Of a DNA stretch of 64,000 nt, positions 6,680 through 46,397 are shown piece by piece; within the stretch, counting starts at the first letter, position 1, and each line of letters opens with the position of its first letter. The notes under the pieces were generated by a model, which was given only the letters and a program-made list of their open reading frames with translations, searched no databases and had not been told where the DNA came from. The stretch comes from Candidatus Handelsmanbacteria bacterium (GTDB lineage Bacteria > Latescibacterota > UBA2968 > UBA8231). A program made the translations under genes and the position numbers. The stretch spans positions 1 to 64,000 of the forward strand of contig VGJS01000001.1 of NCBI GenBank assembly GCA_016867395.1, written 5' to 3'.

Positions 6680-7981
6680 ATGGAACGCCGGAGCTTTGTC
6701 AGACATCTGGCTGCCGGCCTGGCCGGCCTGCCCCTGCTGCCCCACCTCAGCGCCGCGGCCAACGAGCAACTCCAGTCCCTGGCCGCCGACCTGCGAACCC
6801 TCGCCCCGGGCCCGGCCCAATGGCGGCGGGTCCGCGACGAGTTCAACTACACCCCGGGCCTGATCCACCTCAACTGCGGCACCATCGGCGCCACCCCCCG
6901 CCCCATCGTCGAGGCCCTCTGCGCCCTGCTGCACGAGCTGGAGAGCAGCCCCTACCACCACACCTTTGAGGGCAGCGGTCTGTACGGCCGCATCGAAGGG
7001 GTGCGGGAGAAGGCCGCGGCCTTCGTGGGGGCCGCCGCCGACGAGATCGCCCTGACCAGCAACACCACCGAGGGCATGAACGGGGTAGCCACCGGCATCG
7101 ACCTGCGCGAGGGCGACGAGGTGCTGACCACCGACCACGAGCACGGGGGGGGCATGGTGGGCTGGCAGTACATGGCCAAACACCGGGGCGCTCGCATCGT
7201 GCAACTGCGGATCCCCCCTCCGGCCCGGTCTGCCCAGCAGATCCTCGACCTGGTGGCCGCCCATCTCAGCCCCCGGACCCGGGTGTGTTTCTTTAGCCAT
7301 GTGGAAACCATCACCGGCACCCTGATGCCCATGGCCCGGATCAGCGACCTGGTCCGCCCCAAGGGCATCCTGCTGGTCTGCGACGGGGCCCAGGCCCCCG
7401 GCATGGTGGACGTTGACCTCAAGGCCCTTGGGGTGGACGCGTATGCATCGAGCAGCCACAAATGGATGCTCGCCCCCAAAGGCAGCGGCCTGCTCTACAT
7501 CCGCAAGGAGGCCCAGGAGCAGATCCACCCGGTGGTGGTCCACTCGGGGTTCGGCGCCTACTCGGCCTCGGTGGGCACCCGCAGTTGGCCCCAGCTCATC
7601 GCCCACGGCCTCACCATGGACTTCCACAATGCCATCGGGCGGCCCCAGGTCCAGGCCCGCTGCCGCCAGCTCAACACCTATCTGCGCCAGCGCCTCGACG
7701 CCCTGCCTCACCTGCGCTGCCTGACCCCCGCCGATCCCGAACTCTCCTCTCCGGGGATCGTCACCTACGCCCTCGACAAGGGCAAGAACGGCGAGATCGC
7801 CGCTCAACTCCACGGCCAGCACAACATCTGGGTCAAACCCGCGGCCGGGACCTACACCCTGCCCGGCGGCCTGCCCCACGAGGACTACAACGCCCTGCGC
7901 TTCTCCACCCACATCTACAACGACGAGGCCCAACTCGACCACGCCGCCGATATCCTGGGGGACATCCTCAAGGCGCTTTGA
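6680..7981 (+). CDS. Class V aminotransferase-like PLP enzyme with Tat signal
   Basis: A PLP-dependent fold-type I enzyme, about 433 residues, similar to isopenicillin-N-epimerase/cysteine-desulfurase-like class V proteins. The Schiff-base lysine is K261 in SSSHKWM. DGAQAPG holds the aspartate that contacts the PLP ring nitrogen. I chose the ATG at 6680 over the in-frame ATG at 6632. It has GGAG 9 bases upstream and starts an obvious twin-arginine signal ([16 protein letters not shown]), so the enzyme is probably exported folded with its cofactor. The substrate is unknown. Confidence 0.85.
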
Positions 7982-23473: not shown

Positions 23474-24850
23474 TCAGGGGGCGGTCTGGAGGGTGAAGCC
23501 GAAGGTGGTCCCCTGCCCCAGGGCGCTGGAAACCCAGAGCTGCTCCCCGTGGACCTCGAAGACGTGCCGCACGATGGACAAACCCAGGCCCGTGCCACCC
23601 AGGGCTCGGGAGCGGCCCCTGTCCACGCAGTAGAAGCGCTCAAAGACCCGCCGCAGCTCCGTGGCGGGGATGCCGATACCACTGTCGGCGACCACCAGGG
23701 CCACGCGCCGCGCCCCGGCCTGGCCGGGCAGGATCTCGACCCGCTCGGCCCCCTCTGCCGGTGCCGGCACCCTCCCAGGATCTCCGGACCACACCCGCAC
23801 CCATCCCCCCTCGGCGGTGTACTTGACGGCGTTGTCCAGCAGGTTGATCAGAGCCTGCTCGACCAGGCGGCGGTCAAATAGGGCCGCCAGCTCGGGGGCG
23901 ATCTCCACCTCGACGCGCAGCCTCTTGGCCGCGGCCGCCTGGGACACCGCGCTCAGACAGGCCTCGACCAGGCTGCGCACCCGGCAACTCTCCTTGTGCA
24001 CCTCCAACTGCTCGGATTCAAGGCGGACGAGGTTGAGCAGATCGTCGAGGAGCCGGGTCAGACGCCCGGCGTGGTCGTCGATGATGCCAACGAAACGGGC
24101 CGTGGCCTGCGGGTCCTGCAAGGCCCCGTCAGCCAGGGTCTCGGCACATCCTTTGATCGCGGTAAGGGGGGTGCGGAGTTCGTGGGAGACATTGGCGACA
24201 AAATCCTTGCGCATCCTTTCGAGGCGGCGGATCCTGGTGAGGTCGTAGAAGAGGGCCACCACCCCCTGGCCCTGCCCCTCGCGGCAGATGGGCACGGCCT
24301 GCACCTCCAACTGCCTGCCGCCGGGCAGGCTCAACTGGCGGGTCTCCGGCCTCCCCTGGCTTAGGGCCAGGTCGATGGCCTCCTGGGCCTGAGCGTTGCG
24401 GGCCACCTCCGGGAGCAGGTTTCCCTCCAGGGGCGGTTGCAAACCAAAAAACTCGATGAGGGCGCGGTTGGCCAGGACCACCCGCCCCTGCGGGTCCACC
24501 ACTACGATACCGGCGGCCACGTTGTCGAGCAGGGCCCCCAGCCGCAGTTGCTCCGATTGGAGTTGGGCCAGTTGGTGCTGCCGCGACTCGCCCAACTCCT
24601 CGAGGGCGACCCCCAGGCTGCGCAGGGGGGCCGGCACCCAGACCCGCCCCGACTCCCCGCTGGCCAGGGCCCGGATCTCCTCGCCCACCTTGCGCAGCGT
24701 GCGGCCCCACAGCCAGGCGTGTGCCGCGCTGTACGCGGCGGCCAGGCCCAGCAGCCCCAGCCCCAGCCAGGTGCCCGAAAACACCGCTCCCAGCGCCAGC
24801 CCACCGCCGGCGAAGGCCACCGGCAGCAACCAGCCCCAGGCCCGGTCCAT
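23474..24850 (-). CDS. phoR: Phosphate-regulon sensor histidine kinase
   Basis: A 458-residue kinase. Two N-terminal membrane helices with almost no periplasmic loop, a PAS domain (about 100-200; LLDNVAAGIVVVDPQGRVVLAN), HisKA with the phospho-acceptor H223 in NVSHELRTPLTAI, and HATPase_c with the N box LINLLDNAVKY, SGIGIP and GGTGLGLSI. This is the PhoR build, which senses phosphate through PstSCAB and PhoU. The start ATG (24850) directly adjoins the phoB stop (24851), and phoU, pst genes follow on the same strand. Confidence 0.92.
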   Translation of the reverse strand: MDRAWGWLLPVAFAGGGLALGAVFSGTWLGLGLLGLAAAYSAAHAWLWGRTLRKVGEEIRALASGESGRVWVPAPLRSLGVALEELGESRQHQLAQLQSEQLRLGALLDNVAAGIVVVDPQGRVVLANRALIEFFGLQPPLEGNLLPEVARNAQAQEAIDLALSQGRPETRQLSLPGGRQLEVQAVPICREGQGQGVVALFYDLTRIRRLERMRKDFVANVSHELRTPLTAIKGCAETLADGALQDPQATARFVGIIDDHAGRLTRLLDDLLNLVRLESEQLEVHKESCRVRSLVEACLSAVSQAAAAKRLRVEVEIAPELAALFDRRLVEQALINLLDNAVKYTAEGGWVRVWSGDPGRVPAPAEGAERVEILPGQAGARRVALVVADSGIGIPATELRRVFERFYCVDRGRSRALGGTGLGLSIVRHVFEVHGEQLWVSSALGQGTTFGFTLQTAP

Positions 24851-25546
24851 TTAGCCGGCCTCCCGGCGGAACCGGTACCCCACCCCGCGCACCGTCTCCA
24901 CCCAGTCGCAAGCCTCGCCCAGCTTCTCACGCAGGCGGCGGATATGGGTGTCCACGGTGCGGCCGTACCCGCTGAACTGGTAGCCCCAGACCACCTCAAG
25001 CAACTCGTCGCGGCTCTGCACCCGACCCCGGCGTTGCACCAGGGTGTGGAGCAGGCGGAACTCGGTAGCCGTCAGCTCCACCGGGCGTCCCGCCACCGCC
25101 ACCTCGTGGGCGCCAGGGTCGATGGCCAAGGAGCCGATCTGGATGCGATCCTCCGCCCCCGGCTCCTCGGGACGGCCGGCCCCCCGGCGGAGGATGGCCT
25201 TGATGCGCAGCACCAGCTCGCGGGGGGAGAAGGGCTTGGCCACGTAGTCGTCGGCCCCCAGCTCGAGGCCGACGATGCGGTCCACCTCCTCGGCCTTGGC
25301 GGTGAGCATCAGCACCGGCACCCGGCGCAGGGTCTCGTGCTGCTTGAGCAGGCGGCACAGCTCCAGCCCATCCATGCCGGGCAGCATCAGATCGAGCACC
25401 ACCAGGTCGGGGGGGGTTTTCTCGGCCTGGCGTAGCCCCTCCTCGCCCTCGGTGGCGGCCTCGACCTCGAAGCCGGCCTGGCGGAGGTTGTAGCTGAGTA
25501 TTTCGAGGATGTCGGGCTCGTCCTCAATTACCAGGACCCTGGCCAT
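24851..25546 (-). CDS. phoB: Phosphate-regulon response regulator
   Basis: An OmpR/PhoB-type regulator of 231 residues. The receiver domain has the acidic pair ED at 8-9, phospho-acceptor D52 in VVLDLMLPGMDG and the lysine in MLTAKAEEVD. The C-terminal winged helix (about 130-231) ends with GYGRTVDTHIRRLREKLG and the recognition region. It should bind Pho boxes, such as the candidate at 32921-32960. It lies 3 bases after phoU and is immediately followed by phoR. Confidence 0.94.
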   Translation of the reverse strand: MARVLVIEDEPDILEILSYNLRQAGFEVEAATEGEEGLRQAEKTPPDLVVLDLMLPGMDGLELCRLLKQHETLRRVPVLMLTAKAEEVDRIVGLELGADDYVAKPFSPRELVLRIKAILRRGAGRPEEPGAEDRIQIGSLAIDPGAHEVAVAGRPVELTATEFRLLHTLVQRRGRVQSRDELLEVVWGYQFSGYGRTVDTHIRRLREKLGEACDWVETVRGVGYRFRREAG

Positions 25547-25549
25547 GCC

Positions 25550-26218
25550 TCAGAGTTTCTCCTTCTGGTGGCGCACAATCCTGCTTTCGGCCAGGTAGAT
25601 GGCGTTCTCGGCGATGTTGGAAGCGTGGTCGCCGATGCGCTCCAGGTGCCGGGAGACCAGGATCAGGTACACCCCACGATCCACGGTGTCGGGCTGGCTG
25701 GTGGCGTGCATGTAGGTCAACAGCTCGCGGAAGATCTGGTCTCGCAGCAGGTCCACCTGCTCGTCAAGGGCGCAGACCTGGCGGGCCTGGACCACGTTCT
25801 TCTGCACAAAGGCGTCGAGGGCGTCCTTGACCATTTTTCGGGCGATCTCGGACATGCGCGGAATGTCGATCAGGGGCTTGAGCAGGGGCATGCTGTTGAG
25901 CACCAGGGCCCGCTGGGCGATGTTGACGGCGTTATCGTTGCAGCGCTCCAGGTCGTAGTTGATCTTGATCAGGGTGGCCAAAAGTCGCAGGTCGCTGGCC
26001 ACCGGGTGCTGGGTGGCCATCAGATTGAGGCACTGCTCCTCGATCTCCACCTCCCAGCGGTCGATGCTCTCTCCGCCCTTGATGACCTCCATGGCCAGGG
26101 CGTTGTCGCGGTTGACCAGCGAGCTGACTGCCTGGTCGATGGACTCCTCCACCGTGGCGCCCATGCGGAGGAAATTGGCCTTGAGTTCCCCCAGTTGCTG
26201 GTCGAAATGCCTCTCCAT
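25550..26218 (-). CDS. phoU: Phosphate signalling protein PhoU
   Basis: A 222-residue protein made of two PhoU repeats of three helices. The acidic metal-binding motifs appear as LERCNDNAVNIAQRA in repeat 1 and LERIGDHASNIAENA in repeat 2. PhoU links the Pst transporter to PhoR and shuts the regulon off when phosphate is plentiful. I chose the ATG at 26218 (MERHFDQQLGELK); the upstream extension is shadow sequence of pstB. Confidence 0.95.
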   Translation of the reverse strand: MERHFDQQLGELKANFLRMGATVEESIDQAVSSLVNRDNALAMEVIKGGESIDRWEVEIEEQCLNLMATQHPVASDLRLLATLIKINYDLERCNDNAVNIAQRALVLNSMPLLKPLIDIPRMSEIARKMVKDALDAFVQKNVVQARQVCALDEQVDLLRDQIFRELLTYMHATSQPDTVDRGVYLILVSRHLERIGDHASNIAENAIYLAESRIVRHQKEKL

Positions 26219-26229
26219 GTTCTGCCTCT

Positions 26230-27012
26230 TTAGCCAAAGCGGCCGGTGACGTAGTCCTCGGTCTGTTTCAGCCCGGGGTTGGTGAAGATCTTGACCGTCT
26301 TGTCGCACTCGACGAGGCGGCCCAGGTAGAAGAAGGCGGTGTAGTCGGAAACCCGCGACGCCTGCTGGAGGTTATGGGTGACGATGACGATGGTGTAGTT
26401 CTTCTTCAGCTCGGCGAGGGTTTCCTCGACCCGGCCGGTGGCGATGGGGTCCAGGGCCGAGCAGGGCTCGTCCATCAGGATCACCCGGGGCTCCACCGCC
26501 AGGGTGCGGGCGATACACAGCCGCTGCTGCTGACCCCCCGACAGGCGCAGGGCGCTGTTCGAGAGGCGGTCCTTCACCTCCTCCCACAGGGCGGCGGCCC
26601 GCAGGCTGCGCTCCACGGCCTGGTCGAGGATGCGCTGGTCCTTCTCGCCGGCGATGCGCAGGCCGTAGGCGACGTTCTCGTAGATGGACATGGGAAAGGG
26701 GTTGGACTTCTGGAAGACCATGCCCACCCGGCGGCGCAGGTCGATCACATCGCAGTCCGGGGCAAAGATGTCCTCCCCCACCACCCACACCTGTCCCCGG
26801 ATGCGGACCGAGGGGATCAGGTCGTTGAGCCGGTTGAGGCAGCGCAGCAGGGTGGACTTGCCGCACCCCGAGGGGCCGATAAAGGCGGTCACCTGGCGTT
26901 CCTGGATGGGCATGTTGATGCCGTGCAGGGCCTGGCTCTGGCCGTAGAAGAGTTCGAGGTGGTCGATCTCGACCACCGGGGGAGGAGCGGTGATGCCTTT
27001 AGTGGCGTCCAT
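26230..27012 (-). CDS. pstB: Phosphate ABC transporter ATP-binding protein
   Basis: The ATPase of the high-affinity phosphate importer, 260 residues. Walker [10 protein letters not shown], signature LSGGQQQR, Walker [14 protein letters not shown] and the PstB hallmark [18 protein letters not shown]. It sits between pstA (11 bases upstream) and phoU (11 bases downstream). Confidence 0.96.
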
Positions 27013-27022
27013 TGAAGGCTCG

Positions 27023-28591
27023 TCAGAAGGCCGAGGAAGCGTAGCGCCGGCGCAGGCGATTGCGTGCGGCGATGGCGATCAGGTTGAGGGCCAGCACGAT
27101 CCCCAATAACAGCAGGGTAGTGGTGAAGACCATCGGTCTGGCGGCCTCCACGTTGGGGGACTGGAACCCCACGTCGTAGATATGGAATCCCAGGTGCATG
27201 AACTTCCGCTCCAGGTGGAAGAAGGGCCAGACCCCGTCCAGGGGCAAGTCCGGGGCGAGTTTAACCACCCCGGTGATCATCAGGGGGGCCACCTCCCCGG
27301 CCCCCCGCGCCGTGGCCAGGATCACCCCCGTGAGGATGCCGGGCAGGGCGCTGGGCAGGACCAGCCGCCAGATCATCTGCAGCTTGGTAGAGCCCAGGGC
27401 CAGGGAGCCCTCGCGAAGTTCGCGGGGCACTGCGGCCAGACCCTCCTCGGTGGCCACGATCACCACTGGGACCGTCAGCAAGGCCAGGGTCATCGAAGCC
27501 CAGAGGATGCCGCCGGTGCCAAAGGTGGGGGAGGGTAGGGCCTCGGAGAAGAAGACTTGGTCGATGGTCCCCCCTACCCCGTAGACGAAGAACCCCAGGC
27601 CGAACATGCCAAAGACGATGGAGGGCACCCCAGCCAGGTTGTTGACGGCGACGCGGATGGCCTGGACCAAGGGCCCCTGGCCGGCGTATTCGCGCAAGTA
27701 CAGGGCCGCCACCACCCCGAAGGGCACCGCGGCCAGGCTCATCAGCACCACCATCAGCACCGTGCCGTAGAGGGCAGGAAAGATCCCCCCCTCTGTGTTG
27801 GATTCGCGCGGCTCCCCGGTCAGGAACTCCCAGGAGCGGCTCAAATACACCCCCGCCTTGGCCGGCCATCCCATCTGGTTAGGCCGGTAGGCCCGCAGGA
27901 TCTCCACTACCTTGACCTGCCGCTCCTCTCCCCCCGCCAGCCGCAGGCTAGCCACGTAGCGCTCGCTCTCGCCCCGCAACCGCCCTAATTCCTCGGCCAA
28001 GGCCTCAAAGCGGGCCTGCAACCGCTCCTGCTCAGCGCCTGGGGCCTCGTCCCCGAGCGCCCGCAACTCCTTTTCCTGCCGGGTTAGATCGGATAGTTCG
28101 CCCCGCTCCAACTCCCTGATCCGCTCCCGCTCCTCCCCAGTCAGCCCCATCAGTCGCTTCAGTTCTGCCCAACCGGCCTCCCCTTCGCCGGCCAGGGGGT
28201 GATCCCCCTCGCGCAACCCGACCAGCTCTCCATACAACTCGCCCCACTCCTGGCGTTCCAGCACCAAGGCCCCCGCCGGCAGCTCCCTTCCGGTCACCTG
28301 CGCCTCGTCCACCCACCGGAAGTCCAGGCCATAGGTGTCGCGGTTGCCCACCTTGAGCTGCACCCGCCAGGCACCCGGTGTTCCTGGGATCTCCTGGCGG
28401 GCCGTCTCCCTGCCCATCACCCGGCTGCCATCGGCCAGGTCCAGCCGCACCAGAGGGGCGGGCCAGAAATGCCCCAGCGCGTTGAAGCCGATCACCCCCA
28501 CCAGGCCGGCCACCATCAGCAGGCAGCACCCCAGGGCGCTGCCAGTCACCCAGATGAAGGGGTCGCCGCTCTTCCAGAAGCCCGGTCTCAT
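27023..28591 (-). CDS. pstA: Phosphate ABC transporter permease PstA, long form
   Basis: 522 residues, well above the about 290 of E. coli PstA. After the first membrane helix (about 15-40) there is a periplasmic insert of about 200 residues, including a charged coiled-coil-like stretch ([18 protein letters not shown]). The standard permease core follows with the EAA-like loop [20 protein letters not shown]. Long PstA forms are known to accompany long PstC forms. ATG at 28591 overlaps the pstC stop by 4 bases. Confidence 0.92.
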
Positions 28592-30789
28592 AGGCGGCTG
28601 TACTTGTCCCGCAGGCGCTGGCGCACCACTTCCGCGACGGTGTTGATCACAAAGGTGATGGCGAAGAGGAGCAGACCGCTGAGGAACAACACCCGGTACA
28701 GGCTGCTGGAATGCGGGGCTTCGGGCAATTCCACGGCGATGTTGGCGGAGATGGCCCGCAGGCCGTTGAAGAGGCTCCAGTCGGTGATGGGGGTGTTGCC
28801 GGTGGCCATCAGCACCACCATCGTCTCCCCCACGGCCCGGCCAAAGCCGATCATGGTGGCCGAGAAGATGCCCGGCAGGGCCATGGGCAGCACCACCTTC
28901 ACCGCGGTCTGCCAGGGGGTGGCGCCCAGGGCCAGGGAGCCGGCCCGCAGGTGGGCGGGCACGGTGGAGAGGGCGTCCTCGCAGATGGTGAAGATCAGGG
29001 GCACGATGGCAAAACCCATGGCAAAACCGACCACCATGCTGTTGCGCTGCTCGTACCGGGTCGCCGCGCTGAGCCACTGGCGCAGATCCCCGCTAAAGAA
29101 GAACCTCTCCACCAGGGGGCCAACTACCCCAAAGGCGAGGAATCCGGCGGCCAACACCAAACCCGTCAGCAAAGCCAACTCGGCCCGGGGCCCCAGCCAG
29201 CGCAGCCGTGCGGCGGGCAGTTGGGCCTTGACCCAGGCCGCTGCTAGCACCATCAGGGGGAGCAGCAGCAGAAAAAAGAACACCCCGTCGAGCCCCTTCT
29301 CTAAGAGCGGGGCCAGCCACAGGCCGGCGAGGAAACCGAGGATCACGCTGGGCAGGGAGGCCATCACCTCCACGGCCGGCTTGACCACCTGCCTCAGTCC
29401 GGGAGAGGCGAATTCGGCGGTGTAGAGGGCGGCCAGCACCGCCAGGGGCAGGGCAAAGAGCAGGGCGTAGCAGGTGCCCTTGAGGGTGCCGAAGAGCAGG
29501 GGCACCAGGCTGAATTTCGGTTCAAAATCGTCGGATCCGCCGGTGGACTGCCAAACATAGGTCGGCTCCGGGTACCCCTCGTACCAGACCTCGCCAAAGA
29601 GGGTCTGCCAGGTCACGTCCGGATGCGGGTTGTCCAGGGAGAAGCGGTGGAGTTCCCCGCCCCGACCCAGGACCAGAAAGCCATTGGCCTTGGGGGCAAA
29701 GAACAGGGCCTGCACCCCAGAGGGGTCCGCAGGGCGTTCGATATAGGTTTCGCCAGTGGTGACGTGGTGCAGGGCCACCTTGCCCCCGGCGTCGGCGCTG
29801 AGGAACTGCCGGTCCCGCCAGGAGTGGGCAAAGGCCGTGACCGGGTGGGCGTGGGCGGCGAAACGATGCACCATCTGGAACTGCCGCCCCTGCCCCTGGC
29901 CCACCTTGAAGCAGACCCCCACCTGCCCGGATGCATCCCCCACGGCCACCGAGTTCTCGCCGAGGATGAAACCAAGGGCCGTCACCGGCGAAGTACTGGC
30001 CCGGAAAGCCCCCTGCCACACCGGCTCCTCCCCCACCTCTCCAAGGGCCCACTCCCACAACTCCCCCTGGTCGGTGCCGATCAGCAGGTGCCGGCCCCGC
30101 CGGTCCAGGAGCAGCGCGGTGGGCCGGCCCTGGGCGGGCGCAGACAAAGACCAGCGGTGCTCCTCCACCGGGCCGGGCCCCAGCAGCCCCTCGCGCTGGG
30201 AGCGCCGGGCCACCACCACGGCCCCCTCCTGGGTGAGGCCGGCGGCGCTGAAACGCGAGTCCCCATCGTGGCGCAGCGCCACCTGGACCAGTGGGCCGGC
30301 CCCCAGGGACAGGGGCGCCCCGAAGCGCAGGCGGGTTTCGATGCGGCGTTGCCCTTCGGCAAAGTGCGGATCAAAGCCAAAGGTGGCGGGCAGGAGGCGA
30401 CCGTCGGCCAGGGCCAGCCCCAGCACCCCGTCCTCTGGGGCTAGGGCCGCGGCCACTACCTTCGACGAGTCAAGCGCCTCCGGCCGGTTGAGACCCAGGG
30501 AGGCCCCGCCCGCCAACTGCCGGAACTCGGCGCCGGTGCTTCCGCCTGTCAGAACCACCTCGCCGTAGGGGTCCATGGCCGCAACCAGCACCCCCGGCCC
30601 CAGGCTCAGCGAGGCGCCGGGTTCCACCCTGGCCCCCTGGATCAGGGGCAGGGACTCGCGGGCGATGAAGAGGAAGATGCCCAGAACCGCGGCGATCACC
30701 CCCACCCCACCCAGGGCGATAAGGTAGCGCCCGAGCCGGTCGAACAACCTGGCCCGGGCGCCTACGGTTCTTTGGCTGAGATTGGACAA
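28588..30789 (-). CDS. pstC: Phosphate ABC transporter permease PstC, long form
   Basis: 733 residues against about 320 in E. coli. The first helix (about 24-45) is followed by a soluble periplasmic insert of roughly 350 residues that reads like a beta-propeller/WD40-like domain (repeats such as LLDRRGRHLLIGTDQGELWEWAL, split after DQGE, and SWRDRQFLSADAGGKVALHH from about 330). The permease core has AHLRAGSLALGATPWQTAVK. The most likely start is TTG at 30789; no ATG lies nearby. The stop overlaps pstA by 4 bases. The insert may sense or bind a periplasmic partner (inference). Confidence 0.9.
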   Translation of the reverse strand: MSNLSQRTVGARARLFDRLGRYLIALGGVGVIAAVLGIFLFIARESLPLIQGARVEPGASLSLGPGVLVAAMDPYGEVVLTGGSTGAEFRQLAGGASLGLNRPEALDSSKVVAAALAPEDGVLGLALADGRLLPATFGFDPHFAEGQRRIETRLRFGAPLSLGAGPLVQVALRHDGDSRFSAAGLTQEGAVVVARRSQREGLLGPGPVEEHRWSLSAPAQGRPTALLLDRRGRHLLIGTDQGELWEWALGEVGEEPVWQGAFRASTSPVTALGFILGENSVAVGDASGQVGVCFKVGQGQGRQFQMVHRFAAHAHPVTAFAHSWRDRQFLSADAGGKVALHHVTTGETYIERPADPSGVQALFFAPKANGFLVLGRGGELHRFSLDNPHPDVTWQTLFGEVWYEGYPEPTYVWQSTGGSDDFEPKFSLVPLLFGTLKGTCYALLFALPLAVLAALYTAEFASPGLRQVVKPAVEVMASLPSVILGFLAGLWLAPLLEKGLDGVFFFLLLLPLMVLAAAWVKAQLPAARLRWLGPRAELALLTGLVLAAGFLAFGVVGPLVERFFFSGDLRQWLSAATRYEQRNSMVVGFAMGFAIVPLIFTICEDALSTVPAHLRAGSLALGATPWQTAVKVVLPMALPGIFSATMIGFGRAVGETMVVLMATGNTPITDWSLFNGLRAISANIAVELPEAPHSSSLYRVLFLSGLLLFAITFVINTVAEVVRQRLRDKYSRL

Positions 30790-30804
30790 GGGTCTGGGAT
30801 ATCC

Positions 30805-31776
30805 CTATTTGGCCGAGAGTTTGGCCAGTTCTTTTTGTGCCACCTCGAAGGGAACGGGCATGTAGCCGTCCTTGATCACGATCTCCTGCCCTTCCTTGGA
30901 AAATACGAACTTGCCGAACTCCCGCACCAGCGGATCGAGTTCCTTGCCCGGCGCCTTGTTGATATAGAGGTAGAGGAAGCGGCCCAGGGGGTAGGCGCCC
31001 TCCATGACGTTTTGGAGGTTTGCTTCCTTGAAGGGCTGGCCCTCCTTGGCGGCCAGGGGCAGGGCGCGCACCCCGGAGGTGATGTAGCCGATGCCGCTGT
31101 AGCCGATGCCGAAGCGGTCCGTGGTGATGCCCTGGACCACCGAGGCCGAACCGGGCTGTTCTTTCACCTCATCCTTGAAATCCCCCTTGGCCAGGGCGTG
31201 GTCCTTGAAAAACCCGTAGGTGCCGGAGGCCGAGTTGCGGCCGTAGAGGCTGATCTTGGCCGCGGCCCGATCCCCCTGGAGCCCCAACTGACCCCAGGTA
31301 TTGATATCCGCGGCCGCCCCGCCCTTGCGGGTCTTGGAGAAGATGGCGTCCACCTGCTGCATACTCAGACCCTGAACCGGGTTGTCCTTGTTGACGAAGA
31401 CGGCCAGGGCGTCCAGCGAGGTCCCCAGTTCCGTGGGTTTGTACCCGAACTTGGCCTCGAACTGGTCGATCTCGGTGGATTTCATCGAGCGCGACATGGG
31501 GCCGAACTGGGCGGTGCCCTCGATCAGCGCCGGAGGTGCGGTGCTGGACCCCTTGCCTTCGATCTGGATGGTGACGTTGGGGTAGAACTTCCTGAAGCCC
31601 TCCAGCCAGAGGGTCATCAGGTTGTTCATCGTATCTGAACCGATGCTGTTGGCATAGCCCGAGACCCCTGAGGTCTTGGCGTAGGGCTGGTACCGGGCAT
31701 CGACGGAGGGAGCCTGAGCCTGGAGGGCGCTGGCCACCAGGACCCCGGCCGCCGCAAGGGTAAGGATGCTGTGCAT
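30805..31776 (-). CDS. pstS: Periplasmic phosphate-binding protein
   Basis: 323 residues with a signal peptide (MHSILTLAAAGVLVASALQA). Phosphate-binding segments: VSGYANSIGSDTMNNLM near the mature N-terminus, GTAQFGPMSRSM, and GRNSASGTYGFFKD. It feeds phosphate to PstCAB. ATG at 31776 has AAGGAG 7 bases upstream; a longer start at 31815 lacks a signal-peptide context. A 10-base palindrome GGGATATCCC (30796-30805) covers the stop codon. Confidence 0.95.
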   Translation of the reverse strand: MHSILTLAAAGVLVASALQAQAPSVDARYQPYAKTSGVSGYANSIGSDTMNNLMTLWLEGFRKFYPNVTIQIEGKGSSTAPPALIEGTAQFGPMSRSMKSTEIDQFEAKFGYKPTELGTSLDALAVFVNKDNPVQGLSMQQVDAIFSKTRKGGAAADINTWGQLGLQGDRAAAKISLYGRNSASGTYGFFKDHALAKGDFKDEVKEQPGSASVVQGITTDRFGIGYSGIGYITSGVRALPLAAKEGQPFKEANLQNVMEGAYPLGRFLYLYINKAPGKELDPLVREFGKFVFSKEGQEIVIKDGYMPVPFEVAQKELAKLSAK

Positions 31777-31888
31777 GGGTTGCTCCTTTGCTGGGGATGG
31801 TTGGGCGCCATCCAACGCCGCTGCTCAAACTGCGCTGACTGCGCGGTGATATGGCGACAGCCAAGTGACGTCTCGGTGTACTCGGAAC

Positions 31889-32851
31889 TCAGAATTCAAA
31901 GAAGCCGGTGAGGCGGGGGGTCAGCTCGGCGTCCTTGCCGCTGTCCTGGAACAAGGTAACGCGCAGGTTGGGCATCAGGTGCAGGTCCTTGGCCAGGGCC
32001 CAGTCCAGCCCGCCGATCAGCAGGGTCTCCTGGTCGTCCTCCGCGTCCCCGTTGGGCTCGTACAGATCGGCCCGGACAAACACCTTCTTGCCCTCCCCCA
32101 CTGGTTTGGCCCCAAAGACCGACACCCCAAAGCCCTTCTGGTCTTCGCCGTCGGCAGCCGTCTTCTTGTCGATGCGGTAGAAACCCTCTACCCCGCCGTG
32201 GAACCCCTCCCCGCTCTTGCTGACAAACCCGGCCAGGGTGGTCTGGTCCTTCCCGCCCTTCTGGGGCTGCATGTCGGCGTAGAGCTTGGCGTCCAGCCCC
32301 CCCACCTTGGTGAGGGCCTGCACCGCCACCTTCTTGTCGTTGTCGGACTCGGCCGAGTAGCCATTGCCGTTGCTGAGCATCAGGGACAGGCTCGACGAGC
32401 CCCCCAATTTGCGGGTCCAGCTGAGCCCCAGGTCCACGGCCGTGCCCTTGGCATGCAAGTCCATGATGGTCTTTTCGATAGGACGGTAACCCCAGACCTT
32501 TTCCTGCAGGGCCCAGGTCAGGGTGGGGACCAGACCGGCGCTGATAGAGCCCTGAGCCTGCTTCCAGGTGATCCCGCACTCCTTCACGTAGGGGATCATG
32601 CGCTCCCGCTTGCCAAAGCCGGCGTCGTTGGCCTCCAGCCGGAAACGGCCGCTCACCTTATCGCTCCACTTGGCGTCGTAGGTGAAGTAGATGCGGTTGA
32701 AGCGGAAGCCGTTCTGCTTCTCGGCCGGGCCGCTCAGGTTGTAGTAGTAGTCCCCGACCATGTAGCCGCTGATCTTGCCCTCTGCCGCCAGGGCCGGCAG
32801 GGCGAGTCCCCCCAGCAGAGCCATGCTCAGGATCGCGGTTTTCAGTCTCAT
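31889..32851 (-). CDS. Outer-membrane beta-barrel porin of the Pho cluster
   Basis: 320 residues with a signal peptide (MRLKTAILSMALLGGLALPALA) and alternating beta strands up to a C-terminal phenylalanine (LTGFFEF), the mark of a BamA-inserted barrel. Position at the head of the pst operon and length suggest a phosphate-inducible porin (OprO/P-like role), but I do not see specific homology. Strong ribosome-binding site AAGGAGGGAAGG. The Pho-box-like array lies about 70-110 bases upstream. Confidence 0.75.
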   Translation of the reverse strand: MRLKTAILSMALLGGLALPALAAEGKISGYMVGDYYYNLSGPAEKQNGFRFNRIYFTYDAKWSDKVSGRFRLEANDAGFGKRERMIPYVKECGITWKQAQGSISAGLVPTLTWALQEKVWGYRPIEKTIMDLHAKGTAVDLGLSWTRKLGGSSSLSLMLSNGNGYSAESDNDKKVAVQALTKVGGLDAKLYADMQPQKGGKDQTTLAGFVSKSGEGFHGGVEGFYRIDKKTAADGEDQKGFGVSVFGAKPVGEGKKVFVRADLYEPNGDAEDDQETLLIGGLDWALAKDLHLMPNLRVTLFQDSGKDAELTPRLTGFFEF

Positions 32852-39268: not shown

Positions 39269-40522
39269 TCAGATCAGGGTGCCGGCGGGGATGATCCCGT
39301 TCTTGGCCACCACCACGATCCCGTCGCGGATGAAGAAGTCCTTGCCGTCGGCCTCCTGCACCCCGGCCTCGTTGAGGATGCGCACCCCGGCGCCGATGCG
39401 GGCGTTCTTGTCGATGATGGCCCGGCGGATCACCGACCCGGCGCCGATGCCGATGGCGGGGATCTTGGAGGTGGTGGACCGTTCCAGATCCGCGGGTGTG
39501 TCGTAGAAATCCGCCCCCATCATCACCGTCTCGGAAAGCAGTGCCCCCGCCCCGATGATGCTGCGCACCCCGATCACCGAGCCTTCGATGCTCTGGGCCA
39601 GGATATGCGATCCCTCGGAGACGATGCTGCGCTCGATGCGGCAGCCCTCGATGCGCGCCCCAGGCAGGAAGCGGGGGCGGGTGTAGATGGGGGTCTTGTG
39701 CTGGTAGAACTCGAAATGGGGCTCCGGGCTGGTCAGGGCCAGGTTGGCGTCGAAGAAGGAGCTGATGGTGCCGATGTCCTCCCAGTAGCCTTCGAACTGG
39801 TGGGCGTACACCCCCACCTTCTGGATGGCGTCGGGGATGATGTGTTTGCCGAAATCCTCCTTCATAGTGGCCATCAGCAGGCTAATTAGCACCTGCGGCT
39901 CAAAGAGGTAGATGCCCATCGAGGCGAGATAGCGCTCCTCTCCTGCCCCCGGCAGGCGCAGTTCCTCCAGTTGCGGGCCGGGCTGGGGTTTCTCGCGGAA
40001 ATCGACGATGCGGCCATCGGGGGCCATCTTGAGGATACCCAGGCCGGGGGCCTGGTCCCGGCCCACCGGCTTGACGGAGATGGAGACCTCGGCCCGGCGG
40101 CGGCGGTGCTCCTCGACAAAGGCGCGGTAGTCCATGCGGTAGAGGTGGTCCCCCGACAGGATCAGACACTGGTCAGCGCGGCGGGACATGATGTGGCGCA
40201 ACTGCTGGCGCACCGCGTCGGCGGTGCCCTGGTACCAGTTGGTGGTGTCCTGGGTCTGCATGGCCGCCAGGATCTCGACGAAGCCGTCGGAGAAATTGTC
40301 AAAGCGGTAGGAATTGCTGATGTGGCGGTGCAGGGAGGTGGAGTTGAACTGGGTAAGGACGAAGACCTTGTCGATACCGGCGTGCAGACAGTTGCTGATG
40401 GGGATGTCGATCAGCCGGTACTTGCCACCGATGGGCACGGCCGGCTTGGAGCGGTACAGGGTCAGCGGGAACAACCTCTTGCCCTGTCCGCCCCCCAGGA
40501 TGATGCCCAGCACGTCCTTCAT
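39269..40522 (-). CDS. glgC: Glucose-1-phosphate adenylyltransferase
   Basis: ADP-glucose pyrophosphorylase, first step of glycogen synthesis, 417 residues. N-terminal nucleotide site LGIILGGGQGKRLFPLT, SKPAVPIGGKYRLIDIPISN, and LSGDHLYRMDY; the C-terminal part has left-handed beta-helix repeats (GARIEGCRIERSIVSEG). In operon with mgsA, so sugar storage and overflow of triose phosphate may be co-controlled. Confidence 0.95.
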   Translation of the reverse strand: MKDVLGIILGGGQGKRLFPLTLYRSKPAVPIGGKYRLIDIPISNCLHAGIDKVFVLTQFNSTSLHRHISNSYRFDNFSDGFVEILAAMQTQDTTNWYQGTADAVRQQLRHIMSRRADQCLILSGDHLYRMDYRAFVEEHRRRRAEVSISVKPVGRDQAPGLGILKMAPDGRIVDFREKPQPGPQLEELRLPGAGEERYLASMGIYLFEPQVLISLLMATMKEDFGKHIIPDAIQKVGVYAHQFEGYWEDIGTISSFFDANLALTSPEPHFEFYQHKTPIYTRPRFLPGARIEGCRIERSIVSEGSHILAQSIEGSVIGVRSIIGAGALLSETVMMGADFYDTPADLERSTTSKIPAIGIGAGSVIRRAIIDKNARIGAGVRILNEAGVQEADGKDFFIRDGIVVVAKNGIIPAGTLI

Positions 40523-40623: not shown

Positions 40624-40642
40624 CCCCGGCCAAAGGCCGGGG
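40624..40642. repeat. Hairpin at the 3' side of the IS200-type element
   Basis: CCCCGGCC (40624-40631), loop AAA, GGCCGGGG (40635-40642): a perfect 8-bp stem 37 bases beyond the end of the restored tnpA frame. IS200/IS605 elements have such subterminal hairpins, recognised by TnpA as single strands. Confidence 0.6.
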
Positions 40643-40679
40643 CGTTACGTCCGGTGCATGGCTTCGCCACCGCAATTTC

Positions 40680-41130
40680 TTAAACGGACACTGACCCTAG
40701 CAAATCCAACTGTTGTGGGCTTTTCTCTTCTTGGCGATGATACTGGACATACCGCTTGATCATTTCGGCCGTAACCTGATCCCCTACCGTGCGGGCAAAG
40801 TACCCGTCCGCCCAAGAACTCCCCTCCCCACAACTCGCGTTTCACCTTGGGGTGTTCCTTAAACACCCGGCTTGCCCAACTGCTCTTCAGCAGACCAACC
40901 ACCTGGGAAATCGAATAGCGCGGTGGAAGCGACAAAGAGATATGCACATGATTCTTGGCTACCTCCAACTCCTCAATCACAAAATCGAAATCTTCGACAA
41001 CCCAATAAAACAGCTCCCGTACTGCCTTAAGCACGTCACCCCGCAAGATCCACTTCCGATACTTGGGAGCCCACACCAGATGATATTGGGTATCAAAGAC
41101 TGCATGACTGGTTCTTCCAACCGCCATCAT
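40680..41130 (-). pseudogene. tnpA: IS200-type transposase TnpA, frameshifted
   Basis: An HUH/Y1 transposase. Seen in frame from ATG 41130 (or 41127): RTSHAVFDTQYHLVWAPKYR, the HUH motif in KNHVHISLSLPPRYS, and LWGGEF. There the frame breaks. One base over it continues WADGYFARTVGDQVTAEM and IKRYVQYH with the catalytic tyrosine, ending TAA at 40680-40682. A surplus T in GAGTTCTTGGGC explains the shift. The intact protein would be about 149 residues, as usual. TnpA is probably inactive. Confidence 0.8.
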
Positions 41131-41170
41131 ACACCTCCAACCGTGGCTGGAACGGTATACGATAAACAGT

Positions 41171-41195
41171 TTTTGCTTGCCTGCGGCAAGCAAAA
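41171..41195. repeat. Hairpin at the 5' side of the IS200-type element
   Basis: TTTTGCTTGCC (41171-41181), loop TGC, GGCAAGCAAAA (41185-41195): a perfect 11-bp stem 41 bases upstream of tnpA. Confidence 0.6.
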
Positions 41196-41268
41196 CTTTT
41201 CCTCTCCATCCAAAGGAAGGGGCATCCAAGTTCTAATGACTCCGTGAAATCTAGAACCACTTCCGGTC

Positions 41269-43328
41269 TTAGGCGTACCCCAGCCCCACCTGCAATTCGG
41301 ATTTGAATCCCAACTCCTCCACCACCTCATCGCGGTGGGCGAAAAGGTTGGCGTCAATGGTGGTGTGGAGGTTGCCTACCAGGTGAACCTGGAGGGAATT
41401 TAAGGACTGCACCGAGAGCCGCCGGGTGGATGCCGCCCCGGCGAAAACCTTCATGCTCGAACCGAGGGCGTTGGCCTTGCCGAACTGCCTGCGGTACTCG
41501 GGCACCACCCCCACCTCGCGCCGGCCCCTGGCGAAGTCCTCCTCCAGGCCCAACCGCGCCTTGCCCTGCGTGCCCAGGCTGCGGTGCAGGCCCGAGCTGA
41601 CCCTTAGGGTCAGGGGGCGCTCCCGGCCGCCCGCCCCGGGTCCACACGGTGTTGAGGTCCAGGGATACGAAGGGGGCCGGCTGTTTCTTTTACCAGGTAA
41701 ACACCGCCTCCACCTGCAAACGATCCGCCGCCTCCCTGGACCTGCCCGCTTCCTGCATCTGCCCTTAACTGGAGCGCAGGTTGGCCGACAAGGTGCCCCC
41801 ACGGGCCTCGCGGTTGCGCTGTCCGTCCACCAGCGAGTTCCAGGTCGTGGCGTCGTTGCCGCCCAGGAAGGCCAGTCCTGGTTACTGGCCCGCCGCCGGG
41901 TTGCGGGCCCTGCGGTTCAGGGAACCGCTCACCTTGGCGCGGCTTTTCCAGGCCCGGCCCACCAGGTGCTCCAGGCCGTTCCGGCGGCGCAGGCCGGGGC
42001 AGCGGGCCAGGTGAGGCGCCACGAACTGGCGCAGGGTGGCCCTGTCTTCGGACTCTTTGGGGCAAAGGGAACCCGGAGGGAAATACTCGTCCCCCCCCCC
42101 TCGGCCAGGTACGCGGTGGTGGCAATCCGGTACAGCTCCTCTGGGTTGAGGGCCCGGCCATTGACCCGGTCAGCGGCCTCGTCGTACCCAGAAAAAAGCA
42201 GCCGCTAGGCCTCCTAGAAGCGGCCCATGCTGCTAACGGCGAGGGGTTGCAGTTCCGCCCCTTTGACCTTGGTGCTGACCGCCGCGTCGTCGAAGCGTAT
42301 CCACTGGGCCACGTCGGCCTCAAAGATGGCGGACTCCAATACCTGGGGCCGCAGGGTGCCCAGGTTGATCACCCCCACGTCGGCCCCCAGGTGTCCCCGG
42401 ATCAGGTCGGCCACCGGCTGGGGGGTATCGGCGATGAGGGCACTAGCCCAGCCGATGACCTCGCTGCGGGCCAGGGCGAAACGGGCCGCCTGGGAGACCA
42501 CCCGCGCCGCCACCAGGGGGTCCTCGGCGAGGGTGGAATCCAGGGGGATCAGCCCAGCCTCGCAGCCCAGCACTGCCACCCCGGCCCCCGAAGTGGTGAA
42601 AAGCCAGGCGCCGCTGGCTAGGCGCCGCTGCCAAGTCCCTCCTCCTCGCTGGGCCGGCTGCCTGAAGCCCCCGGCGATGAAGAGGGGAACCTGGGGAAAC
42701 TCTGCGGCCAGTTGCACCGCGTCCTCCTCCATGTGGACCAGGCCGATGGTCAGGTCGGCCCGGCCCTGGAGGCTGTCGAGGGCCTGGCGCAGCGCCGCTT
42801 TGGGGTTGCCGATCTACAACCCACTGTTGCGCCGGTTGTTGATTATGCGCTGCACCCCTGGCGAGTGAAGGCCCACCACGGCCACGCGCAGCCCCCCCAC
42901 TCGACCACTAACTAGGGGACCACCGCAAGCCCCTGCACCCCGATATTAATGCCCACGATCGCCGGGCCGCCCTCCAGCCGCACCTTGAGGGTGTCCAGGC
43001 CGTAGTCGAACTCGTGGTCGCCAGCCACCACCGCAGTGTACCCCACCGCCCCCATCAGCTCCCAGGCCGGCTTGCCCCCATCCCAGCGCGACAGAGGGTC
43101 CGAACCCAGCGCGTCCCCTCCGTCAACCACAAGGGCCGCTCTGTCGGCGGCCGCCCCTTTCAGGGCCTGGCACAACCGGCGGAAGCCCCCCAGCAACTCG
43201 TCGTAGGAAGGCCCGGGCAGGAGTTGCCCCTGGAGGTCGTTGGTGTGATAGATGGTGAGGGTCTGGGACTGGGCAACGGTGAACCCCATCCGGCAGAGCA
43301 GCCAGACCAGGGCCAGAAGGTGCATCAT
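41269..43328 (-). pseudogene. UshA-like 5'-nucleotidase fused to a beta-barrel, heavily disrupted
   Basis: Start ATG 43328 overlaps the L,D-transpeptidase stop. The first 139 residues are a signal peptide and a metallophosphatase domain (LTIYHTNDLQGQLLPG, VVDGGDAL, VVAGDHEFDYG) ending at TAG 42912-42914. The rest continues with a frameshift in seven C (42892-42898) and further stops: LRVAVVGLHSPGVQRIINN, TAG, LTIGLVHMEEDAVQLAAEF to SSMGRF, TAG, TAG, then the 5'-nucleotidase C-domain (ELYRIATTAYLAEGG), three TAA, and, in another frame, a beta-barrel-like tail ending ELGFKSELQVGLGYA. At least seven lesions, so this is a decaying gene of about 2.06 kb. Confidence 0.75.
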
Positions 43329-44971
43329 CTCCCCCACGCCTCCTGGAGGGCGGCGTCGGCCCCGTACAGATCGGGCCGGAAGTATACCAGGCCCTCCTCG
43401 TCCACCCCGACCGTCCAATAGGCGAAATACACCGGCACCCTGTGCGCCAGGTCCACCTGCCGGGTCTGCCCCGACTCCAGAACCTGGCGGATGCGGCTGC
43501 GACTCCAGTCGGGGTTGCCGGCCAGCAGGTGGACCGCCAGTTCGAGGCTCTTCTCCAGGCGGATACAGCCGTGGCTGAAGTCCCGCGCGGCCCGGAAGAA
43601 GAGTTCGCGGTTGGGGGTATCGTGCAGGTACACATGATGGGGGTTGGGCAGGAGGAATTTTATTTGGCCCAGGGGGTTGTCCGGGCCGGGGTTTTGCATG
43701 AAGGTGTAGGGCCAGTCCTCCTGGTCCGCCCTTTCCCAATCCACCGAATCGGGCGGCACCACCCTGGCCTGGTCCCCAACCCCGCCGACCACCCTGATAC
43801 CCCGCTCCTCCAGGTAGTACGGGTTTTGGCCCAGGGCCGGCAGCACCTCCTCGCGGGCGATGGAGGGGGGGACGTTCCAATAGGGGTTGAGCACGATCTG
43901 TTTCAGATCGCTGTTGAAAAGTGGGGTGCGCCACTGGGCCTTGCCGGCGATCACCTTCATCTCAAGGGCCACCTGCCCCCCCTCGACCAGGTCGAGGGTG
44001 TAGTCGTCGAGGTTGACCAGCAGGTACCGGGCCTGGGGCCCCAGGGGCAGCCAGCGCCAGCGCTCCAGGTTCAGTTCGAGTTGCCTGAGCCGCTCCTCCA
44101 CCCCCACCCCCAGCGCCGCCCCGGTCGGGCTGTCCACCCGGCCATTGACCGCCAGGCCGTGCCGGCGCTGGAACCGGCGCAGGGCGCGGTCTACCTGCTC
44201 TCCGAAACCCGTCCCCCCGATCAGGCTGTCCAAGTCCCCCTCGGCCACCAGGCGGCGGCGCAGGGCCGCCTCGGTCCATCCCTGCCCGCCCTGGCGCGGC
44301 GGGTCAGAACCCACCAGCACCTCCCAACCACCGGCGCTTTGGAGCCGGTGGTACACCGACCACGCCTGCACCAGGCGCCGGTACTGGGGGTGGGCCGGCC
44401 GTAAGCGGTCCAGCACGCCCCCCACCGCCCCATCGGCCAGGGCGCTGTCCAGCAGCAGGTCGGGTTCCACCAGCCCCCCCCCGGTCCACTGGCGCGCCGC
44501 CGGCGGTACCCGGTTGCCCTGGAGTTGGGCCGCCCGGCGCAGGAAGGCATTGGTCAGCAAGAGGTCCAACTCGGCCAGGCGCACCAGGCCCCGGCGGCTT
44601 CCCCCGCCCCGCCGCCAGCCCTGCCAGGCCGCCTCGATGGCCTCCAGGTGGTATCCCTGGCGGGACAACCCCTCCTCCTCCCTGGCCTGCAGCACCTCGA
44701 GGAAGGAGTCGGCAACCGGCAACGGGCCGCCCGCCCCGCTCCAGACCAGGTGGTCGCGGTGCCGGGCGTAGAAAGCGCCCAACTCTGGAGCGGCCGGCAG
44801 CATCACGCCATCCGCCGCGATCAGGGTGCGCCCCTCCGCCTGCCGGATCTTGGGGCGCAGATAGGTGTCCAGCACCGGCGCCTCTCTTGGCAGCGCCGGC
44901 CCCCGTCCCCCCAGGCAGGCTGCACATCCGGCCGCTAGCAGAAACAACCCCACCCTGAACGCCGATTTCAT
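43325..44971 (-). CDS. L,D-transpeptidase, YcbB (LdtD)-like
   Basis: A 548-residue lipoprotein-like or secreted enzyme (hydrophobic N-terminus with LFLLAAGCAACLGG). It has an N-terminal scaffold domain, a peptidoglycan-binding helix set (about 270-310; ALRRFQRRHGLAVNGRVD) and a YkuD catalytic domain with the nucleophile C469 in DFSHGCIRL and the histidine in HHVYLHDTPNR. It makes 3-3 cross-links in peptidoglycan. The start overlaps mgtE by 4 bases and the stop overlaps the nucleotidase remnant. Confidence 0.9.
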   Translation of the reverse strand: MKSAFRVGLFLLAAGCAACLGGRGPALPREAPVLDTYLRPKIRQAEGRTLIAADGVMLPAAPELGAFYARHRDHLVWSGAGGPLPVADSFLEVLQAREEEGLSRQGYHLEAIEAAWQGWRRGGGSRRGLVRLAELDLLLTNAFLRRAAQLQGNRVPPAARQWTGGGLVEPDLLLDSALADGAVGGVLDRLRPAHPQYRRLVQAWSVYHRLQSAGGWEVLVGSDPPRQGGQGWTEAALRRRLVAEGDLDSLIGGTGFGEQVDRALRRFQRRHGLAVNGRVDSPTGAALGVGVEERLRQLELNLERWRWLPLGPQARYLLVNLDDYTLDLVEGGQVALEMKVIAGKAQWRTPLFNSDLKQIVLNPYWNVPPSIAREEVLPALGQNPYYLEERGIRVVGGVGDQARVVPPDSVDWERADQEDWPYTFMQNPGPDNPLGQIKFLLPNPHHVYLHDTPNRELFFRAARDFSHGCIRLEKSLELAVHLLAGNPDWSRSRIRQVLESGQTRQVDLAHRVPVYFAYWTVGVDEEGLVYFRPDLYGADAALQEAWGR

Positions 44972-46368
44972 CCCCAGAGATGGAAAAGCGTCAGGGCGAT
45001 GGTGAAGTACACCAACAGCGACAGGCCGTCGTTTAGGGTGGTGATCAGCGGCCCAGATGCCACCGCCGGGTCCACCCCTACCCGGCGAAACAGGAAGGGG
45101 AGTAGCGCCCCCAGCAAGGAGGCCAGGGTGATGGAGGAAAACATCGCCAGCCCCACGCAGCCGCCCAACAGCCATTGGCCGGTCCACAGCCGGGCCACCC
45201 CGAGGATCAACACCCCCAGGATAAGCCCGATGCTCATGGCCACCCGCAGCTCGCGCCAGATATTTGACCACAGCGCCCTGGCCTTGATATGGCCGGTGGC
45301 CAGGCTACGCACTGTTACCGTCGAGGTCTGCACCCCGGTGTTGCCGCCCATGCCGGCTATGCCGGGCATGAAAATCAGCAACATGCTGCTGGCCGCCACG
45401 ATCTCCTGGTGGAAGCCGTCGATTACCGCCCCGGAAAATATGCTCCCCCCCAGGCAGAATAGGAGCCAGGGAAGGCGGCGGCGCAGCACCCCGGCAATCG
45501 AGCGGGCCTCCAACTCCGTGGCGCTGGTGCCGGCCAGGCCGTAGATGTCCTCGGTGGCCTCGCGGTTGATCACGTCCACCACGTCGTCTACCGTCACCTG
45601 GCCCACCAGCCGGCCCTCCCCGTCAACCACCGGCAGGGCCACCAGGTCGTAGTCGGCAAAGAGCCGGGCGATTTCCTCCTGGTCCATGTCGGCCCGCACC
45701 GAGATGCATTCCCGCTTGGTCAACTCGCTGATCAGGGTGTCCTGCGAGGCCAGCAGCAGGCGCTTGATCGGCGCGGTGCCCAGCAGCCGCTCCCCTTCGT
45801 CTACCACGTAGACGTAGAAGATGTGCTCCTCGTCGGTCAATTCGCGCAGGTGGGCGATGGCGCTGGCCACGTCCATGTCCTCCTGCACCGCCACCAGGCA
45901 CGAGGTCATCAGGCCGCCGCCGGTGTCCTCGGGGTGGGACATCAGCTCGCGGACCTCCGCGACCTCCTCCCCCTCCATTAGTTCGAGCACCCGCTCGCTG
46001 TGCTCCTTGGGAAGGTCGCCCAGGATGTCGGCTGCATCGTCGGGGGCCATCTCCTCGACCAGGTCCGAAAGCACCTCGTGGTCGAGACTTTCGGCGACGT
46101 TCAGCAGGGAGGAGGTATCCAGCTCCGCCAGCATCCGGGCGGCCAGGGGCTTGGCGATGAGGGGCAGGAGGCGCTGCTGGTCCTCGTTTCCCAGGTGGCG
46201 GAACAGGTCGGCCAGGTCGGCGGGGTGCTGGTTGTTGAGCACAAGGCGCAGGGTGGCCAAATCGCCGGCCTCCAATGACTCGCGGGCGGTATGCAGCAGG
46301 ATCTCGCGCCGGCCCTGAAGGCTGCCGATCTCCATGATCTCGTCCTGGGAGCTGGATTCCTCACTCAT
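44968..46368 (-). CDS. mgtE: Magnesium transporter MgtE
   Basis: 466 residues: N-terminal MgtE superhelical domain (about 20-135), two CBS domains (about 140-265; LPVVDGEGRLVGQVTVDDVVD, split after GQVT), and five membrane helices with the conserved pore segment MPGIAGMGGNTGVQTSTV. It imports Mg2+ and is gated by Mg2+ binding to the CBS part. ATG at 46368 is preceded by a G-rich stretch and an inverted repeat; no strong ribosome-binding site. I see no M-box riboswitch. Confidence 0.93.
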   Translation of the reverse strand: MSEESSSQDEIMEIGSLQGRREILLHTARESLEAGDLATLRLVLNNQHPADLADLFRHLGNEDQQRLLPLIAKPLAARMLAELDTSSLLNVAESLDHEVLSDLVEEMAPDDAADILGDLPKEHSERVLELMEGEEVAEVRELMSHPEDTGGGLMTSCLVAVQEDMDVASAIAHLRELTDEEHIFYVYVVDEGERLLGTAPIKRLLLASQDTLISELTKRECISVRADMDQEEIARLFADYDLVALPVVDGEGRLVGQVTVDDVVDVINREATEDIYGLAGTSATELEARSIAGVLRRRLPWLLFCLGGSIFSGAVIDGFHQEIVAASSMLLIFMPGIAGMGGNTGVQTSTVTVRSLATGHIKARALWSNIWRELRVAMSIGLILGVLILGVARLWTGQWLLGGCVGLAMFSSITLASLLGALLPFLFRRVGVDPAVASGPLITTLNDGLSLLVYFTIALTLFHLWG

Positions 46369-46379
46369 GGTCGCCCACC

Positions 46380-46397
46380 CTCCGCGCCGGCGCGGAG
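46380..46397. repeat. 18-base palindrome just upstream of mgtE
   Basis: CTCCGCGCC/GGCGCGGAG, perfect, 11 bases before the mgtE start. It could be an operator or an RNA hairpin in the leader; no evidence for either. Confidence 0.5.

Follow-up and report, generated by a model that had tools for sequence, protein, structure and literature searches.

A decayed nucleotidase and beta-barrel fusion gene and its intact relatives in the Latescibacterota

The fusion of a nucleotidase-like domain and a beta-barrel in one gene is genuine in this phylum, and the intact family has an uncommon architecture, which was not found in the open-access full-text literature (titles and abstract openings, a coverage outside which subscription papers mostly fall). 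Its members are best read as carrying a conserved, catalytically degenerate UshA-like domain that is tethered beneath, and perhaps gates, an outer-membrane channel. Barrel proteins that carry a conserved pseudo-nucleotidase would represent a new way of arranging nucleotide capture at the outer membrane, and would offer a case, open to testing, in which an enzyme fold has become a receptor. The copy in the window (the whole stretch of 64,000 nucleotides analysed here) is a pseudogene, and in itself matters only as one of the four broken copies seen.

The decayed copy and its surroundings

The features of the window that are needed here are the following, with the basis of each assignment in brackets:

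41251..43328, minus strand: nucleotidase-barrel fusion pseudogene, whole trace including the stop codon (frame-tolerant alignment to L022)
43263..43328, minus strand: signal-peptide-like N-terminus (sequence and L022 alignment; signal peptide by eye)
42505..43262, minus strand: UshA-like metallophosphatase-fold domain, decayed, borders approximate (L022 alignment; family profile)
42001..42504, minus strand: 5'-nucleotidase C-terminal domain (PF02872), decayed, borders approximate (Pfam)
41254..41953, minus strand: C-terminal 12-strand beta-barrel, DUF481/DUF3078-like, decayed (barrel profile; models of the homologue L042)
43325..44950, minus strand: L,D-transpeptidase (YkuD) gene, intact, directly upstream of the pseudogene (Pfam, synteny)
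44968..46380, minus strand: MgtE Mg2+ transporter gene, next upstream after the L,D-transpeptidase gene (Pfam, synteny)
39269..40522, minus strand: glgC-like gene, downstream neighbour (tblastn synteny)
40640..41235, minus strand: IS200-like (Y1_Tnp) element immediately downstream of the pseudogene and before glgC (Pfam)

The trace was read in three frames and then aligned frame-tolerantly to L022, an intact homologue from the same genus, with which it is collinear over residues 1-720 with identities at 501 of 695 aligned codons; the length and identity of this match exclude a chance alignment. The first-pass annotation had described one decaying gene made up of a UshA-like domain, a 5'-nucleotidase C domain and a barrel, broken by at least seven stops or shifts, and this description is borne out by the collinearity and by a count of 11 such lesions (8 in-frame stops and 3 frameshifts); relative to L022 the trace also has a deletion of 15 residues and some smaller in-frame gaps. 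It had also placed the trace at 41269-43328, of which the start, 43328, holds and the end has to be moved, as the gene runs on to 41251: the last in-frame stop, at about 41271, falls within the final strand, 41254 marks the original C-terminus and the stop codon occupies 41253-41251. The ATG of the fusion gene shares bases with the stop codon that ends the L,D-transpeptidase gene upstream. Within the trace, PF02872 (5_nucleotid_C) scores 25.6 bits against a cut-off of 23.6 in the open piece 42214-42732, and the tail, which ends in K-W-F beyond a stop, is matched by the family barrel profile (9.2e-41 and 4.5e-33) and weakly by DUF481.

The decay is confined to the fusion gene, the adjoining L,D-transpeptidase, MgtE and glgC-like genes being open. 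Substitutions unique to the window copy are distributed as 49/54/65 over codon positions 1/2/3 (624 comparable codons), while the lineage-unique substitutions of three intact relatives in the genus are distributed as 21/14/51, 33/20/63 and 19/11/36, and those of the window's glgC, used as the one control gene, as 9/5/36. Sequencing or assembly error was considered as a source of the stops and rejected, because of the open neighbours and of a codon pattern that is relaxed here and not in this single control. A second working copy elsewhere in the genome was likewise rejected, because PF02872 matches this locus only; PF00149 has 11 matches in the genome, and an N-domain relative of 922 aa on contig 4 has no barrel by eye. 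The window species has lost the fusion gene.

The glgC-like gene, whose name we presume from its sequence, is found downstream in three relatives of the genus, L022, L023 and L024 (tblastn, 85-91% identity). The L,D-transpeptidase gene is also upstream of the fusion gene in L022 and L023, while the contig of L024 ends within the fusion gene and so before that position; the complete order MgtE, L,D-transpeptidase, fusion gene, glgC is retained in L022, and MgtE was not matched in L023. Just about 85 bases separate the fusion gene from glgC in L022. The IS200-like element is present at 5 places in the window's genome including 40640-41235 (91-100% identity, two of them partial); the other four show 91-94% identity, and there is one additional piece of 46 bases. 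The Y1_Tnp match of the copy at 40640-41235 stops at position 96 of the 121 in the model, a sign that the copy could be truncated or contain a shift. Two further observations concern the window at large. Open reading frames at 23477-32851, about 8 kb from the pseudogene, resemble by eye a PhoR/PhoB-PhoU-Pst phosphate cluster, and ARAGORN calls a tRNA-Pro (GGG) of 95 bases at 30765-30859 on the plus strand, which coincides in part with the end of a long ORF on the minus strand and may be spurious.

The intact family and its active site

Open copies that cover both the nucleotidase and the barrel were counted from the matches of a family alignment search in 18 of 64 phylum genomes (the window's own included), one of them cut at a contig edge. 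Nucleotidase and barrel are consequently not always separate genes, and the intact homologue that had been suggested to exist in relatives does exist. The four broken copies are those of the window, G023, G025 and G030, and fragments at or near contig ends were found in G012, G031, G036 and G042. In another family, f6, three genomes (G048, G052 and G056) have open frames of 729-750 aa with the same layout, the tail of G048 being matched by the barrel profile (E 2.6e-13) and those of G052 and G056 placed by alignment only. G061 gave weak partial matches to the family. In G004, a relative in the genus, neither the barrel, the N-domain nor the L,D-transpeptidase was matched, a result in which gene loss and missing assembly are indistinguishable.

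A wider scan of 84,980 species genomes returned 21 loci, of which 14 are titled Latescibacterota/Latescibacteria, 6 Gemmatimonadota/Gemmatimonadetes and 1 uncultured bacterium; it used two peptide patterns and has low sensitivity, so that absence from other groups is not implied. The six Gemmatimonadota/Gemmatimonadetes loci were considered as a second phylum and dropped, as they appear to come from genomes placed in the window's phylum. Two side observations belong here. In the G023 copy, about 110 inserted bases with two stops break up the barrel (L026, about 7500-7630, the same place as L051), and in G018 another fusion (L080:1638-3290, plus strand) joins an N-terminal part that no Pfam model matches to a barrel of the DUF3078 type (E 2e-6).

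The N-terminal part of the family is of the UshA type. The family profile matches UshA-type PDB chains with E 4e-52 to 4e-45, the corresponding part of the model matches UshA-type structures (Foldseek E 4e-30), and a metallophosphatase-fold domain is followed by a PF02872 domain, as in UshA-type 5'-nucleotidases. The family therefore shares with the UshA/CD73-type enzymes (3ivd, 1ush, 1hp1) both the two-domain fold and a collinear profile match, and the equivalents of D41, D84, N116, H117, H217, the base-stacking aromatic and the GGDxY loop are mostly kept. By contrast, it has lost the His of D-x-H and the second-site His, and it is fused to an outer-membrane barrel.

The dimetal ligand set of a UshA-type 5'-nucleotidase consists of D-x-H, GD, GNH, H and GH-x-H/Q, and the complete set was not found in the intact family. 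With UshA residue numbers and roles assigned to the family columns, D41 is kept in 17/17 members (L043 is cut there), the D84 column holds 15 Asp and 3 Asn (n = 18), and N116, H117 and H217 are each present in 17/18 and D120 in 12/18. H43, the His of D-x-H, is found in 0/17. At the position of the second-site His, H252, a His is present in 1/18, namely L059, which has Asn at H217; the register of the GH motif is uncertain by one column, the His being absent in either register except for L059 in that of UshA. In the C domain, the column of the stacking aromatic F429 holds F or Y in 18/18, D504 is kept in 17/18 and the GGDxY loop is mostly kept, whereas an R410-like Arg is lost in the clade that has a TLC-like neighbour (see below). 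In the aligned columns, the residues of the metal motifs are all missing from the three distant f6 members, whose D-x-H stretch, unplaced by the aligner, reads FGWKT by eye. As a control of the alignment, the metal motifs are present in two soluble paralogues without a barrel, the open frames L016 (475 aa) and L017 (532 aa).

Judging from their codons, the intact copies compared are under purifying selection, with dN/dS of 0.11-0.38 in 27 domain values (9 pairs by 3 domains, not independent because the pairs share members) from families f1, f3 and f4, the window's genus and f6 being left out. Taken together with the missing ligands, this argues that selection retains the fused domain for a role different from ordinary hydrolysis with two metals, although one metal and some activity would be possible, since D41, D84, N116 and H217 are kept in most members. 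The first-pass annotation had called the protein an enzyme, which the loss of defining metal ligands in the intact family makes unlikely.

The barrel and its orientation

Structure prediction of the intact homologue L042 gives a barrel, as had been proposed for the tail. The full-protein model (pLDDT 82.6, pTM 0.60, a value at which the orientation of the domains is uncertain) has 12 strands at residues 484-719, and the barrel-only model (pLDDT 87.3, pTM 0.81) has 12 long strands plus a short one of 4 residues. About 16 residues lie between the nucleotidase-like domain and strand 1. The odd-even difference in hydrophobicity along the strands has a mean of 2.26, against 1.17 in shuffles, and was reached by 0/5000 of these; the alternation is weak in model strands 1 and 3 (0.83 and 0.33). 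A C-terminal K-W-[FLIY] is present in 10/10 tails. An even number of predicted amphipathic strands, this C-terminal signature and a signal peptide (by eye) thus point to an outer-membrane beta-barrel.

The closest sequence family of the barrel is DUF481/DUF3078, which the tails match repeatedly but weakly: at E<=1, DUF481 matches 11/18 and DUF3078 5/18, with scores mostly below the Pfam cut-offs. For DUF481, L033 reaches 23.1 against a cut-off of 21.1, and the other members matched in the same scan fall below it. A table in PMC4827864 gives DUF481 12 strands and a length of 277 +/- 41 residues, that is, without a large extra domain, unlike the fusion. No PDB sequence is matched by the barrel profile up to E 10.

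In structural comparisons, the best barrel match among those listed by VIA-align is the nucleoside channel Tsx with thymidine (Z 16.7, rmsd 3.1 over 196 residues), followed among the same matches by PcoB (Z 13.9), OmpLA (13.5), NanC (13.5) and the autotransporters EstA (12.7) and NalP (12.4). Although a nucleoside theme is common to Tsx and the family, the identity is 8%, 0/18 barrels match the Tsx family PF03502 at E<=1, and Tsx is not among the best 50 Foldseek matches, in which OmpG (E 2e-6) and other porins come first. Moreover, Tsx is not known to have a fused periplasmic domain. The idea of a separate Tsx gene was dropped, since 2/60 relatives gave matches, which were weak, one being above the cut-off. 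The Tsx match may reflect a shared barrel fold, which by itself shows no function.

Gene neighbours and possible roles

The gene context of the family is mixed: membrane transport is frequent, and nucleotides come in with one clade only. In the window's own family, the neighbours are the L,D-transpeptidase and MgtE genes or a K+ channel and MscS genes, and no TLC-like gene was found beside the fusion gene. Among the neighbours in other clades are genes for a K+ channel with TrkA_N, for MscS channels and for a Na+/Pi cotransporter, and one gene that resembles an amino-acid permease. At three loci of another genus of the window's family (one with a broken copy), a nearby gene belongs to a single cluster whose scanned member is a Na+/Pi cotransporter, a weak link to a phosphate context.

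In 7/21 loci (L053-L056 and L059-L061), the next same-strand gene downstream comes from one cluster, of which 3/3 scanned members match part of PF03219, the TLC ATP/ADP transporter model (1.6e-8 to 5.1e-10); in L053 and L054 this neighbour is short and covers only about 60 of the 491 positions of the model. A start codon of this gene is at most 25 bases from the fusion stop in 5/6 loci checked and about 85 bases away in L059 (L061 is outside this sample). PF03219 has no match in 14 control genomes or in the genome of the window. As a side observation, two TLC-like genes, L089 (G028) and L090 (G032), lie in stretches without a fusion trace (tblastn with the L054 protein), unlike those of sister species.

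Several roles could be imagined for such a protein. It had been proposed that the intact homologue would be a self-anchored surface enzyme; its barrel would then export or display an active 5'-nucleotidase outside the cell as autotransporters do. EstA and NalP, which carry exported passengers, are indeed among the structural matches of the barrel, the order passenger-then-barrel fits and several metal ligands are kept. However, the His of D-x-H is missing in 17/17 members and the second-site His in 17/18, three distant members keep no metal motif, and Tsx, PcoB, OmpLA and NanC outscore the autotransporters in VIA-align. In addition, the family is without a long linker, and in the model just about 16 residues would be available for a segment spanning the pore. 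We consider this explanation highly unlikely, and the surface location is not supported, as the topology would rather favour a periplasmic domain.

If the domain is periplasmic, it could still act as an enzyme fixed to the outer membrane, whose active site has been altered to a single metal or remodelled and acts on an unusual substrate. The retention of D41, D84 (or Asn), N116, H117 and H217 in most members, together with purifying selection on the metallophosphatase domain, would agree with this, but residues are lost at both metal sites and the three f6 members retain the architecture without the metal motifs, so that such an enzyme seems unlikely. A similarly low probability is given to a structural protein of the envelope or of osmotic stress, in which a DUF481-type outer-membrane barrel would carry the dead nucleotidase domain as a module for interactions in the periplasm, perhaps with a link to peptidoglycan made by the neighbouring L,D-transpeptidase. 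L,D-transpeptidases can tether barrels, and the corresponding gene overlaps the start of the fusion in the window and lies upstream of it in L022 and L023. MgtE, a K+ channel with TrkA_N and MscS genes are found among the neighbours, and most members (11/18) match the Pfam family DUF481. Nevertheless, the neighbourhoods vary between clades, the L,D-transpeptidase turned up, in the loci compared, in the genus alone, and the aromatic of the nucleobase site is kept.

What the evidence suggests, instead of a surface enzyme, is that the intact relatives are nucleotide-sensing or gating channels. In the reading that we prefer, and hold with moderate confidence, a nucleotidase-like domain in the periplasm under an outer-membrane pore would bind a nucleotide or nucleoside instead of hydrolysing nucleotides, and would deliver the bound ligand to the channel, receive it from the channel, or gate the channel. 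The periplasmic placement is proposed because the domain precedes strand 1 of an even-stranded barrel by only about 16 residues, and ligand binding because the C domain has largely retained its base-stacking aromatic and its GGDxY loop. The uptake route would be completed, in one clade, by a TLC/NTT-like carrier of the inner membrane, the gene for which lies immediately downstream; the likeness to NTT/TLC nucleotide carriers concerns the gene context only. A broader version, according to which channels with a built-in dead nucleotidase serve throughout the phylum as nucleotide- or nucleoside-binding gates and one clade imports intact nucleotides through its NTT-like carrier, is more tentative and, in our judgement, rather doubtful. 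If it were true, two steps that are split between UshA and Tsx in E. coli would be joined in one chain, with capture in the place of hydrolysis.

The downstream gene of L059 (L059:4783-8103, plus strand) combines TLC, HEAT and cNMP-binding parts. This NTT-HEAT-cNBD layout is described in PMC5381601, a source from which NTTs are also known in free-living bacteria and in which one table includes a Latescibacteria sequence.
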